A DNA stretch of 64,000 bases, taken from NCBI GenBank assembly GCA_036365515.1, contig CM070873.1, forward strand, positions 80,142,029 through 80,206,028, read 5' to 3'. The stretch comes from Torymus aiolomorphi (Eukaryota; Arthropoda; Insecta; Hymenoptera; Torymidae). Position numbers and translations under genes: made by a program. The first letter of the stretch is position 1; every line of letters starts with the position of its first letter. The notes under the pieces were generated by a model that was not told the DNA's origin, did not search any database, and saw only the letters and a program-made list of their open reading frames with translations. Positions 46,651-62,250 of this stretch are shown here, one piece after another.

Positions 46651-47030
46651 GGCAAAATATTGGAGCAGAATCTGCAAGTACATAGCTGAAACAGTATTAA
46701 AACATATTTCTCTTACCATTCAATAATTCGGCAGCAAAATTTGTTCTAATTCTATGTTTTAATCAGATCAGTATTTAGTGTAATGCAATATAATAATTAC
46801 ATTATAAGGTTTCCAATTACTCAAAAGTCATCGTTTTAACACTTTGCTGTAGGGGTCATATTGGGTCGTATAAAATTTTAAAGAAACTATTTCTCTGTAG
46901 TAATGTATGATCCACAGGAGGATGTACTTTTTTCATGAAATTATATAACTTTACATCAAAAGAATAAATTAAATAGTTGAGGACGATCTTTGGAGGCAAA
47001 ATAAAATGATCTTATTTCTTTTTTGGCAAC

Positions 47031-47062
47031 GTTTCGTTGGCTTAGTACGCCAACCTCATCAG
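47031..47062 (-). ncRNA. hammerhead-like core in the outer palindromic element (uninterrupted copy)
   Basis: On the minus strand: CUGAUGA, one extra G, a 6-bp stem GUUGGC/GCCAAC around loop GUACUAA, then GAAAC. The mirrored copy on the plus strand is split by the retrozyme (47166-47180 and 48313-48329). I cannot find a proper stem III with a UH cleavage site or a stem I partner, and the extra G is irregular. It is therefore described as ribozyme-like, probably a degenerate or minimal form. Confidence 0.4.
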
Positions 47063-47180
47063 GCCGAAATTATAACCGTATATATCCTACGTCGATCAGA
47101 TGTTATTCTCGACAGTCGAGAATAACATCTGATCGACGTAGGGTATATACGGTTATAATTTCGGCCTGATGAGGTTGGCG

Positions 47181-47464
47181 TGTGGCAGTTCAAGCTTCAC
47201 AGCTCTGCCACCAGAGTTCGTGCCAAGTTTCAACTCTCGCAAGTGGCCGAATCGAGTCCTTGGTTAGTATATATAGAACTTCCAAGATTAGTACAGACAT
47301 CCTACCCGAGTCTAAGGCAAGGTTACCATCAGCCTTACTGATGAGTCCACGATGGTAACCTGGGACGAAACTCAACCTACCTTACCGACCTCTCTCACAC
47401 CTAACCTTACTTTCTCCACGAGATGCCCTCGTAGAGTCGCACCGCGGCTCTGCGAGACCGCACA
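47181..47464 (+). repeat. left LTR of the retrozyme-like element
   Basis: This 284-bp direct repeat starts TGTGGCAG and ends CCGCACA, the TG...CA ends expected of an LTR. It is almost identical to 48005-48308. The differences I see are one T/C change, a 20-bp gap near 47420 and three substitutions close to the 3' end. A TATATATAG box (47268-47276) lies about 32 bp before the ribozyme. A pol II start about 25-30 bp downstream of it would lie just upstream of the hammerhead, which would leave the ribozyme whole near the RNA 5' end. Confidence 0.9.
47308..47373 (+). ncRNA. type III hammerhead ribozyme (left LTR copy)
   Basis: Read in order: stem III strand GAGU 47308-47311; cleavage nucleotide C47312; stem I UAAGGC 47313-47318 pairing perfectly with GCCUUA 47332-47337; core CUGAUGA 47338-47344; stem II GUCC 47345-47348 with GGAC 47363-47366; core GAA 47367-47369; stem III ACUC 47370-47373 pairing with GAGU. 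All invariant core positions (C3, U4, G5, A6, G8, A9, G12, A13, A14, U16.1, C17) are present. Loop I contains GGUUACCAU (47321-47329) and loop II AUGGUAACC (47352-47360), perfect 9-nt complements, consistent with the loop-loop contact that speeds natural hammerheads. Predicted cleavage is 3' of C47312. Confidence 0.93.
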
Positions 47465-47465
47465 C

Positions 47466-47483
47466 TGGTGACCCCGACGTGAT
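47466..47483 (+). promoter_or_regulatory. primer-binding site for tRNA-Trp
   Basis: TGGTGACCCCGACGTGAT starts one base after the left LTR. It is the exact complement of the last 18 nt (including CCA) of animal tRNA-Trp, and it is the same PBS as used by avian sarcoma-leukosis retroviruses. It identifies the direct repeats as LTRs replicated by a tRNA-primed reverse transcriptase. Confidence 0.9.
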
Positions 47484-48004
47484 ATGAACACGCAAAGTAA
47501 AAAAACCTTCTGATACAATCCAATCCGACAAACCACAAAAAGAGACCCCTCAAGGCGTGCGACAGATGACGCCTCGAGCGAGCGGTACAGTGGTAAAAAC
47601 CCAATCCTCGAACCGTCGTCACACATGACAAAAATTGGCTAGGTGACAAGTAGACGACATTGCCGGCCGGGATGCCCGGAGCCCATTCTCTTCCTTATCG
47701 CCGCAACATGGCAACAGACCGAATGGTAACCATGCTCCGGCTCCACTCTTCGACATCCAAACCCGTATCTCCACCAAGCAACGATGGCGGACCTGCTGCA
47801 ACCGCCACAGCTGTGGAGCTCTTGGGAGCAGTAAAGCTTAGGATGTAGGCAATCACGCAATCCACACTTCCTGACCTGTAAATCATACATCCTCGCTGTC
47901 GGTAACCTCGTCCCCACTAACATCAATTAAGTTCTCGCCTCCGCTCGGGCACTCACTCCATCTTCTCGTTCCTCGCCTACGGCCTCGGCACTGGGGAGGG
48001 CGCC
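47484..48004 (+). other. noncoding centre of the retrozyme-like element, ending in a purine tract
   Basis: About 520 bp without a long ORF; the best is about 60 codons around 47660-47848, with no recognised similarity. It ends CTGGGGAGGGCGCC directly before the right LTR, and GGGGAGGG (47994-48001) is a plausible polypurine tract. A further ATGGTAACC at about 47723-47731 repeats the loop II sequence and is complementary to loop I of both ribozymes. Confidence 0.7.
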
Positions 48005-48308
48005 TGTGGCAGTTCAAGCTTCACAGCTCTGCCACCAGAGTTCGTGCCAAGTTTCAACTCTCGCAAGTGGCCGAATCGAGTCCTTGGTTAGTATATATAG
48101 AACTTCCAAGATTAGTACAGACATCCTACCCGAGTCTAAGGCAAGGTTACCATCAGCCTTACTGATGAGTCCACGATGGTAACCTGGGACGAAACTCAAC
48201 CTACCTTACCGACCTCTCTCACACCTAACCTCACTTTCTCCACAACCTTTCAACTCTCCCCACGAGATGCCCTCGTAGAGTCGCACCGCGGCCCTACGAG
48301 TCCGCACA
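48005..48308 (+). repeat. right LTR of the retrozyme-like element
   Basis: A 304-bp copy of the left LTR at a constant 824-bp offset through the ribozyme. It contains a 20-bp segment (ACAACCTTTCAACTCTCCCC, near 48243-48262) missing from the left copy; flanking CCAC repeats suggest a slippage deletion on the left. The near-identity of the two repeats indicates a recent insertion or recent conversion. Confidence 0.9.
48132..48197 (+). ncRNA. type III hammerhead ribozyme (right LTR copy)
   Basis: Identical over all 66 nt to the ribozyme at 47308-47373, offset by 824. Predicted cleavage is after C48136. Two active copies in one transcript would release an 824-nt linear RNA with 5'-OH and 2',3'-cyclic phosphate ends. 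Those are the ends used by tRNA ligase (RtcB) to make circles in retrozyme and viroid-like systems (established knowledge for those systems, inference here). Confidence 0.93.
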
Positions 48309-48515
48309 GGCCTACTAAGCCAACGAAACGTTGCCAAAAAAGAAATAAGATCATTTCATTTTGCCTCCAAAGATCGTCCTCAACTATTTAATACAAAAAT
48401 GGATGGCGTTATACCTTCAACAAAAGAATAAATTATTTCATATTAAAAAAAATTTAATTTTAATTTTTCAAAACTCTAAACAAATTGGCGTATGAGTATA
48501 AAGCAAATGTTTATA

Positions 48516-49813
48516 TACGAGGGTCATTTGATAAGTACCTAGCCTACAAATGAAAACACCAAAATTTTATAAAAAATAAAATTTATTTATCAATGTAGTC
48601 TCCTTTTAGTTGAATACACTTGGTCCAGCGGTGTTCCAATTTTTTTAACCCCGTTGAAAAAAATGTTTTCTCTTGGTTTGCAAAATAGGCTTCCGTGGCG
48701 GTGATTATTTCGTTATTGGAGTGGAATCTCTTCCCGGCGAGCGAATTTTTTAGGTTCGGAAACAAAAAAAAGTCGCACGGAGCCAAATCTGGAGAATACG
48801 GTGGATGGGGCAGCAGTTCGTAGCGTAATTCTACCAATTTAGCCGTGGCGAGTGCAGAAGTGTGAGCCGGTGCATTATCGTGGTGGAAAAGCACTTTCTT
48901 TTTAGACAAATAGGGCCGTTTTTCTTCTAACACGGCGTCAAATCGGCTCAATAGTTCGGCGTAGTACTGTCCTGTGACCGTTTTGCCCTTCTCCAGATAG
49001 TCAATAAAAATCACACCTTGAGAATCCCAGAAAACAGTGGCCATCACCTTTCCGGCCGACGGGACCGTCTTCGCCTTCTTCCGAGCAGATTCACCGGGTA
49101 AGGTCCACTGTTTTGACTGCTCCTTGGTCTCTGGAGTGTAGTAGTGAATCCATGTTTCGTCGACGGTCACGTAACGACGCAAAAACTCTTTTGGATTGTG
49201 ATTAAACAGCTCCAAACACTGCTCTGAACTGGTCACACGGATGCGCTTGTTGTCTGCAGTCAGCAAACGCGGCACCCACCTTGCTGACAGCTTCCTCATG
49301 CCTAAAATCTCATGTAGGATATGCCACACGCGTTCTTCTGAGATGCCTACTATCGCAGCTATCTCGTGCACCTTTAATCGGCGGTCTGACAAAACGATAT
49401 CGTGTATTTTTGTCACGTTCTCCTCCGTAGTGGCTGTTTTCGGAGCACCTGGGCGTGGATCATCAAAAACCGACGTACGACCACGTTGAAACTCGTTATA
49501 CCAAAATTTAACGGTCGCCATCGAAGGAGAAGCATCCCCATACACTGCATCCAAGCGTTCTTTAATTTCACTGCGCGATTTCCCTTCCAAAAACAAGAAT
49601 CGAATCACCGACCGATATTGTTCTTTCTCCATTTTTTCAAAAATCAACGGACACATTTGCTTTCACACGCTCTCAAAAATAAACTACAACTCCGATCCGG
49701 CTGAAATTTCGTCTGTAACCGTTTACAGGAAGATACTGCACTGTAGTGTATTTCTGGTACGATAGTGGCACCATCTGGCGGTAAGGCTAGGTACTTGTCA
49801 AATGACCCTCGTA
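48516..49813 (-). mobile_element. complete mariner transposon with TIRs and TA target duplication
   Basis: A 1298-bp element bounded by about 28-bp terminal inverted repeats: TACGAGGGTCATTTGA at the left, and its complement ending at 49813 on the right, with about one mismatch. TA dinucleotides at 48514-48515 and 49814-49815 are the duplicated target. The size, TIR length, TA target and intact transposase all fit a full-length Tc1/mariner-superfamily element. It lies 80 bp to the right of the retrozyme-bearing palindromic element and immediately left of an (AC)n-containing repeat. Confidence 0.96.
48583..49656 (-). CDS. mariner transposase, intact (DD34D)
   Basis: A 357-codon uninterrupted minus-strand ORF; the start could be Met1 or the more typical MEKEQYRSVIRF at Met9. 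The N-terminal part is a paired-like double helix-turn-helix DNA-binding region, including KFWYNEFQRGRTSVFDDPRPG, the conserved mariner linker. The catalytic aspartates lie in VDETWIHYY, HHDNAPAHT and the last Asp of YSPDLAPCDFFLF. Exactly 34 residues separate the second and third Asp, which is the mariner DD34D signature. The enzyme cuts and pastes its own element at TA dinucleotides. No stop, frameshift or missing catalytic residue is visible, so the copy could be active or very recent. Confidence 0.97.
   Translation of the reverse strand: MCPLIFEKMEKEQYRSVIRFLFLEGKSRSEIKERLDAVYGDASPSMATVKFWYNEFQRGRTSVFDDPRPGAPKTATTEENVTKIHDIVLSDRRLKVHEIAAIVGISEERVWHILHEILGMRKLSARWVPRLLTADNKRIRVTSSEQCLELFNHNPKEFLRRYVTVDETWIHYYTPETKEQSKQWTLPGESARKKAKTVPSAGKVMATVFWDSQGVIFIDYLEKGKTVTGQYYAELLSRFDAVLEEKRPYLSKKKVLFHHDNAPAHTSALATAKLVELRYELLPHPPYSPDLAPCDFFLFPNLKNSLAGKRFHSNNEIITATEAYFANQEKTFFSTGLKKLEHRWTKCIQLKGDYIDK

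Positions 49814-61437: not shown

Positions 61438-62250
<813 letters not shown>

Follow-up and report, generated by a model that had tools for sequence, protein, structure and literature searches.

The window analysed here is a 64,000-nucleotide stretch of the genome of the torymid wasp Torymus aiolomorphi (assembly GCA_036365515.1, contig CM070873.1, positions 80,142,029 to 80,206,028 of the forward strand). At 47181-48308 it harbors a 1128-bp element laid out as a long terminal repeat (LTR) retrozyme, with a type III hammerhead ribozyme motif in each LTR and a non-coding interior between them (Table 1). The two direct repeats have TGTG..CACA ends and are separated by 4 substitutions and an indel of 20 bp, which all lie in the final 57 bp of the 5' LTR; judging from other copies, whose LTRs measure 304 bp, the shortfall of the 5' LTR is best read as a deletion. 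These dimensions lie near the retrozyme norm of 300-400-bp LTRs and a 300-700-bp non-coding interior, with the 5' LTR slightly short. The GC content of the element is 53%, against 39% for the window, its longest stop-to-stop frame is 96 codons, and one translated frame found no match in a protein database. A preliminary description of the locus, drawn from its letters alone, had listed near-identical TG...CA direct repeats, an exact tRNA-Trp primer binding site (PBS) one base past the left LTR, a purine tract ahead of the right one, GGCG/GGCC flanks, no coding capacity and one type III hammerhead per LTR, and each of these features stood up to analysis. We regard it as likely that the element belongs to a family of non-coding LTR elements with one hammerhead per LTR and a retrozyme life, in which the RNA would cut itself, form a circle and be copied by a Ty3/Gypsy element.

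The flanks are counted as a 4-bp target site duplication (TSD) with one mismatch because the element interrupts one arm of a host palindrome whose left arm preserves the empty site: the uninterrupted arm reads GGCG-TACTAAG, and the occupied one GGCG-element-GGCC-TACTAAG. Within the LTR, the candidate TATA box TATATATA places the predicted start of RNA polymerase II (Pol II) transcription ~26 nt to its 3' side, near the ribozyme, so that the capped leader ahead of the ribozyme cut would be short. The predicted circle delimited by the two cleavage sites has a more stable fold than any of 60 shuffles (z=-3.0).

Table 1. Coordinates, within the window, of the element, its predicted functional parts and its insertion site
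Feature	Position	Strand	Remark
Host palindrome	46968..48392	.	arms 46968-47113 and 47115-47180 + 48309-48392; own hammerhead core
Left TSD GGCG	47177..47180	+	flanking sequence
5' LTR	47181..47464	+	284 bp; 20 bp below 3' LTR
Candidate TATA box TATATATA of Pol II promoter	47268..47275	+	motif
Type III hammerhead motif, 5' LTR	47308..47373	+	predicted cleavage after C47312
Predicted monomer RNA between cleavage sites	47313..48136	+	824 nt; coordinates from sequence, folding; circle conjectural
Non-coding interior	47465..48004	+	540 bp
Extended PBS	47466..47514	+	complement of tRNA-Trp A76 to A38, 10-nt insert in window copy; 47484 faces A58
Polypurine tract GGGGAGGG	47993..48000	+	ends 4 nt (CGCC) ahead of right LTR
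3' LTR	48005..48308	+	304 bp
Type III hammerhead motif, 3' LTR	48132..48197	+	predicted cleavage after C48136
Right TSD GGCC	48309..48312	+	flanking sequence; one mismatch to left

Each hammerhead comprises a GAGU/ACUC stem III, C17 at the cleavage site (47312 and 48136), a 6-bp stem I, the CUGAUGA box, a 4-bp stem II and GAAA. Both match the Rfam model RF00008 with a score of 35.7 bits (E=1.3e-5 when 1.5 kb is scanned), and a strict type III descriptor matches twice in the window, once per LTR, and never in 200 dinucleotide shuffles. Between the loops of 13 and 14 nt there is an 11-nt complementarity, which only 2 of 300,000 random loop pairs attain. According to the cited part of PMC3088659, a 2-bp stem difference in type III hammerheads commonly goes with a pseudoknot, a remark that the stem lengths found here (6 bp for stem I, 4 bp for stem II) fit. 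We infer that the loop pairing is a kissing helix of the active form; it may also be a latch that holds a closed circle shut. Among the 59 LTRs of the copies fetched from the genome (see below), 24 have the 74-nt ribozyme stretch of the window without change, and the letters GAGTH..CTGANGAG..CGAAACTC are retained in 51. One loop-loop pair is A-U in 41 of 42 full-length rows of subfamily 1 and G-U in the other, and at the same position in subfamily 2 it is G-C in 12 of 14 LTRs, with one G-U and one A-C. U7, which we take to be a position left free by the hammerhead consensus, is replaced by A in 12 of 14 subfamily-2 LTRs. Across the four loci compared, the subfamilies differ at 2-3 of 66 hammerhead sites, versus 20-29 of 238 sites in the remaining LTR, and within subfamily 1 the hammerhead is less variable (0.87% non-majority bases) than the sequence directly beside it (1.9-2.1%) or U5 (6.6%).

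The genome search that the preliminary description had proposed reveals a multicopy family with hammerheads kept in both subfamilies. Across the 1.08-Gb assembly (21 contigs) it returned at least 52 matching pieces, of which at least 16 are full length, the window copy included; the counts are minima, scoring having covered 40 of 281 candidates. The other full-length copies are 93-96% identical to the window copy. The 39 loci fetched comprise 22 with two or more LTRs, 9 solo LTRs, 5 one-LTR fragments, left out of the TSD counts, and 3 without a long LTR match. A perfect 4-bp TSD flanks 17 of the 22 (three more match at 3 of 4 bases and two have none) and seven of the nine solo LTRs (one matches at 3 of 4 bases, one has none). 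L043 and L044 have common flanks. Substitutions between the LTRs of a copy range from 0/304 (L013) to 14/304 (L014) and 14/306 (L034), and the low values indicate that some copies are young. The second subfamily, L031-L040, shows 80-90% identity across the alignable interior and ~90% in the LTR. An exact pattern for the LTR-type hammerhead core matches 93 times in the genome, on five contigs, and its reversed control never; in 16 cases two such cores lie no more than 1.5 kb from each other, and for 15 of these the distance is 771-852 bp.

U5 segregates as two haplotypes, and one element may have one in each LTR: the LTR pairs of L014, L017, L024, L029 and the window copy differ mainly in U5. 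L017 (C4:143152991-143155333) is an LTR-interior-LTR-interior-LTR tandem within one perfect TSD, whose interiors are 97% alike over their aligned part and carry different PBS variants. This tandem and the mixed haplotypes would be compatible with more than one RNA serving as template. An autonomous element with hammerhead LTRs was also considered, and rejected, for pairs of cores ~12.1 kb apart: in the one locus examined these are repeated segments of ~12.1 kb (L101 and L102, C1:42100900-42113800), with LTR positions 129-304 only, a hammerhead core and an F-box open reading frame (ORF). Exact hammerhead and PBS patterns had no match in viral and genome contig collections, and a further pattern search brought up two viral contigs that contain a hammerhead-like match and are not visibly related to the element.

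The PBS is unusual in its length. It starts one base beyond the LTR with 18 nt (47466-47483) exactly complementary to the 3' end of tRNA-Trp, the letters used for comparison being the human sequence in PMC6379413 and not the host's. Several copies free of the interior insert have the sequence TGGTGACCCCGACGTGAT-N-TGAACACGCAACCTTCTGAT, which is complementary to the 3' half of the tRNA (A76-A38) over 39 nt, about twice the usual length, and in which N faces A58. That base is A in 14, C in 10, G in one and T in none of 25 copies. A tree-based count gives six parsimony changes at this site and at most one at other PBS sites, with the reservation that its regular expression itself requires conservation at some of them; when all sites of 26 rows are counted by position from the LTR end, each of the other 27 sites among the first 28 of the PBS is conserved in 24-26 rows, one row (L027_0) being the PBS of the helper candidate described below. 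Eukaryotic tRNAs bear 1-methyladenosine at position 58 (m1A58), a base at which reverse transcriptases make errors; tRNA-Trp is said to bear 1-methylguanosine at position 37 (m1G37), a hard stop for copying. The pattern suggests that plus-strand synthesis likely reads through m1A58, putting in a wrong base, and halts before position 37. Since tRNA introns are located at 38/37, the end at this point would also be compatible with a tRNA half as primer. Extended tRNA-Trp PBSs occur in two other LTR elements of the genome: L066 (with L086), an independent element, has the same end at 38 and A at 58, and L059 (with L089) continues beyond position 37 and has T at 58, as if derived from unmodified sequence.

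A candidate helper came from the pattern CANTGGTGACCCCGACGTGAT, which has 47 genome matches, retrozymes included. Among these, L083-L085 and L087 form a family with paired LTRs and long frames, and the frames of L085 encode a DUF7041 gag and a reverse transcriptase (RT)-RNase H-integrase in Ty3/Gypsy order. This family (LTR TGTAGGGG..CTCCACA) was set aside as the helper: it has the PBS and spacer base in common with the retrozyme but not the LTR start, and a chimera (C5:37460400-37469700) indicates a different DUF7041-gag Gypsy. The first part of the chimera consists of a Gypsy LTR, the 18-nt PBS, retrozyme interior and a retrozyme LTR with hammerhead; the rest is the PBS with one base changed, a DUF7041 gag, the RT-RNase H-integrase of a second Gypsy family and a Gypsy LTR, with a weak protease match, below cut-off, between gag and RT. 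Both retrozyme/Gypsy junctions fall inside the common 18-nt PBS, the outer Gypsy LTRs are identical at 268 of 270 aligned sites, and the hammerhead has T instead of C at the cleavage position. The simplest account of such a structure is that the reverse transcriptase switched from one RNA template to the other within a single particle; recombination of DNA at the 18-nt PBS could also have produced it. In the helper and the retrozyme alike, the LTR starts with TGTGGC and the purine tract ends 4 nt before it, those 4 nt being CGCC in 26 of 30 retrozyme loci. The LTR start and purine tract of the retrozyme are like those of one Gypsy family, and its LTR end is like that of another. The chimera likely points to a tRNA-Trp Ty3/Gypsy element as the helper. 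The autonomous partner sought by the preliminary description, with a tRNA-Trp PBS and matching LTR ends, is therefore found in part: the PBS, the TGTGGC start and the spacing of the purine tract are common, but beyond that start the two LTRs have no significant similarity. Its wider proposal, an insect LTR-type retrozyme moved by an LTR retrotransposon, is supported by the 4-bp TSDs and the hammerheads of both subfamilies, by the tRNA-Trp PBS common to a Ty3/Gypsy element that is also similar in purine tract and LTR ends, and by the chimera joined at the PBS.

Type III hammerheads are widespread in this genome. The pattern CTGANGAGTCCN{5,25}GGACGAAAC has 2,334 matches, LTR-type ones included, and its reversed control has none. 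The matches listed, all on contig C1, comprise several families, including tandem arrays with ~454-457 and 353 bp spacing (one of them, L052, at C1:6355012-6370809). Loop 2 was compared with the 34 nt upstream of the core in 13 hammerheads, taken from 11 small loci, the window and L052 and falling into five families by our own grouping. Complementary runs of at least 7 nt link the loops of the same molecule in 7 of 13 hammerheads (three families) versus 4 of 130 cross-family pairs; with G-U counted, runs of at least 9 nt are found in 9 of 13 and 5 of 130, respectively. These counts suggest that paired loops are common among the type III hammerheads of this genome. At L106 (C1:14926600-14927400), two cores closely like the LTR core lie 466 bp apart, possibly a link between tandem and LTR forms.

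The insertion site has a hammerhead of its own. Each arm of the palindrome carries another core, CUGAUGAG-GUUGGC-loop-GCCAAC-GAAAC, and the element sits inside the stem-II loop of the right-arm core, which it interrupts. The palindrome resembles a Penelope-like element, and the core its minimal type I motif, by our own comparison with the family features given in the cited parts of PMC11167929 and PMC7761336; an Rfam scan of 1.5 kb gave no hammerhead match over the palindrome. Rfam matches to MIR4372 and mir-2002 fall on it and were discarded. A direct repeat (46954-46971 / 48418-48435) borders the palindrome, with ~25 extra bp on the right. Beside it is an ORF of 359 codons for a Mariner-type transposase (48583-49662, minus strand), named by reading alone, and an exon of PRMT1 lies at 61438-62217; its closest matches, from Nasonia (89%) and Ceratosolen (91%), indicate a chalcid wasp as the likely host.

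How would such an element move? In the cycle we propose, Pol II transcription would begin just upstream of the ribozyme, the transcript would cut itself in both LTRs, and a host ligase would join the ends of the ~0.8-kb product to close it into a circle. tRNA-Trp would then prime over ~39 nt, and a tRNA-Trp-primed Ty3/Gypsy element would copy the retrozyme, with a plus strand that copies the tRNA beyond m1A58 with a wrong base and ends before position 37; the helper's integrase would insert the product. To judge from its sequences, this is a real element family and by layout an LTR retrozyme, a variant from an animal; that its RNA cleaves itself, forms the ~824-nt circle and is copied in trans is a prediction.

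Several observations weigh against this cycle. The hammerhead score is below the Rfam gathering score of 48.5 bits, so that a default Rfam scan of the window reports no hammerhead, and the core letter pattern is lost from 8 of 59 LTRs. In subfamily 1, non-majority bases are as frequent in the hammerhead (0.87%) as in U3 (0.88%; 47 LTR copies). The minimum-energy fold is an 11-bp hairpin formed from both loops and incompatible with stems I and II, as computed with an energy model that is unable to score a loop-loop helix jointly with the ribozyme, and in the genomic comparison 6 of 13 hammerheads have own-loop runs of just 4-6 nt without G-U (5 in four, 4 in one, 6 in one). Site 58 partly follows lineage, in that copies that have the interior insert tend to carry another base there than copies that lack it, and the six changes at this site would only partly exclude that it is a mere lineage marker. 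Genome searches for the host tRNA-Trp gene gave no intact one, only a gene mismatched in two of its stems. The chimera has no TSD (GTCT on the left, CCTT on the right), and its layout is also a product of linear, conventional strand transfer, so that it would name the helper and not the circle; four other helper copies with the same LTR are free of hammerhead cores over 0.7-0.8 kb before and around the gag start. Finally, the recurrent U5 haplotypes within single elements and the L017 tandem are unexplained by a single circular template.

Could the element be an ordinary terminal-repeat retrotransposon in miniature (TRIM), moving through linear RNA and conventional strand transfer with no circle, its hammerhead a passenger or a trimmer or silencer of the transcript? 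It has what defines a TRIM, being a short non-coding LTR element with PBS and purine tract, and at 1128 bp it slightly exceeds the usual 1000 bp. Hymenoptera have TRIMs with 4-bp TSDs (PMC3532108 and PMC10886601, in the passages cited), conventional reverse transcription can make both the chimera and the copies, and the subfamily-1 hammerhead is no more conserved than U3. Against this stand the core and the loop pairing, which both subfamilies retain and in which one pair is compensated, and the consequence that a working ribozyme, cutting at both sites, would remove the terminal repeat R needed for linear strand transfer. We consider the TRIM account unlikely. Very improbable is the horizontal transfer of a plant-type LTR retrozyme from a food plant into the wasp lineage: the layout is as in plant retrozymes, down to the ~0.7-0.8-kb spacing (PMC4918200, part cited), but the primer is tRNA-Trp and not tRNA-Met, the 13-14-nt loops with their 11-nt complementarity differ from the small plant loops, and the genome has a resident tRNA-Trp Gypsy partner and other type III hammerhead families. 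A chance or misassembled repeat pair with hammerhead-like letters, conceivable from the single locus visible in the window, is refuted by the copies, the 0 of 200 shuffles, the 93 exact matches against a control of 0 and the 17 of 22 perfect TSDs.

A search of the open-licence literature, with subscription papers and preprints outside it, found no animal LTR retrozyme. The following comparisons draw on the cited portions of each source. Plant LTR retrozymes have a type III hammerhead in the LTRs, a non-coding interior and a 4-bp TSD, and depend on Ty3/Gypsy elements (Cervera, Urbina, de la Pena 2016, PMC4918200). The wasp element is like them in its hammerhead per LTR, ~0.3-kb LTRs, non-coding interior, PBS and polypurine tract, 4-bp TSD, 0.6-0.8 kb between cut sites and ends resembling Ty3/Gypsy; it is unlike them in its insect host, tRNA-Trp in place of tRNA-Met, extended PBS, long complementary hammerhead loops and GC of 53% versus more than 55%. 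On account of the tRNA-Trp PBS it is filed as a variant and not as a member of the plant family. Animal retrozymes are non-LTR elements with type I hammerheads (Cervera and de la Pena 2020, PMC7229834). They too are non-autonomous hammerhead-bearing elements of animal genomes, but they are tandem repeats giving ~170-400-nt RNAs, without LTR, PBS or polypurine tract; identity with them was rejected, the wasp motif being type III and placed in LTRs. Penelope-like elements with hammerheads (PMC11167929) are likewise hammerhead-bearing retroelements, with a minimal type I motif and no LTR organisation.

Type III hammerheads with paired loops are described from termites and dipterans, with none in hymenopterans by the authors' descriptor (PMC7936874). 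Like these and those of hepatitis delta virus (HDV)-like RNAs, the wasp motifs are type III, from an insect and joined by Watson-Crick loop-loop pairing; theirs differ in an extended helix I and an extra hairpin, and the portion cited describes no LTR element. Insect elements with type III hammerheads are mentioned as in preparation in PMC7761336. Among Hymenoptera, Helenus and PbTRIM (PMC10886601, PMC3532108) are similar short non-coding LTR elements with 4-bp TSDs; Helenus has Gypsy partners, and some Helenus elements and Gypsy-32_NVi use tRNA-Trp. The passages cited make no mention of an LTR hammerhead in either, and PbTRIM uses tRNA-Leu. Assignment to Helenus (TRIMp3) was rejected, as its tRNA-like Pol III promoter is not in the wasp LTR, which has no similarity to tRNA-Lys or tRNA-Trp above shuffles and no A/B-box pair better than shuffles.

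Where might the family have come from? The preliminary description suggested an independent or convergent origin, and the tRNA-Trp primer, the paired loops and the many other type III families of the genome favour an independent one, without amounting to proof. A fuller scenario, which we offer tentatively and at somewhat less than even confidence, is that insects evolved LTR retrozymes on their own, a stock of kissing-loop type III hammerheads, often tandem, having been captured into Gypsy-dependent LTR elements with a circular RNA template; each transposition would copy tRNA-Trp as far as position 37, put a wrong base opposite m1A58 and so leave in the genome a readable scar of this RNA modification.

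In the literature covered, LTR retrozymes have so far been plant elements, and animal retrozymes tandem, type I and without LTRs. If the reading of the wasp family as an LTR retrozyme is true, a second, animal lineage with another primer tRNA and other loops would provide a comparative test of how ribozyme-bearing circular RNAs and retrotransposons originate from one another, in either direction. A named helper candidate and the variable base facing tRNA position 58 would open reverse transcriptase and primer use to direct tests.

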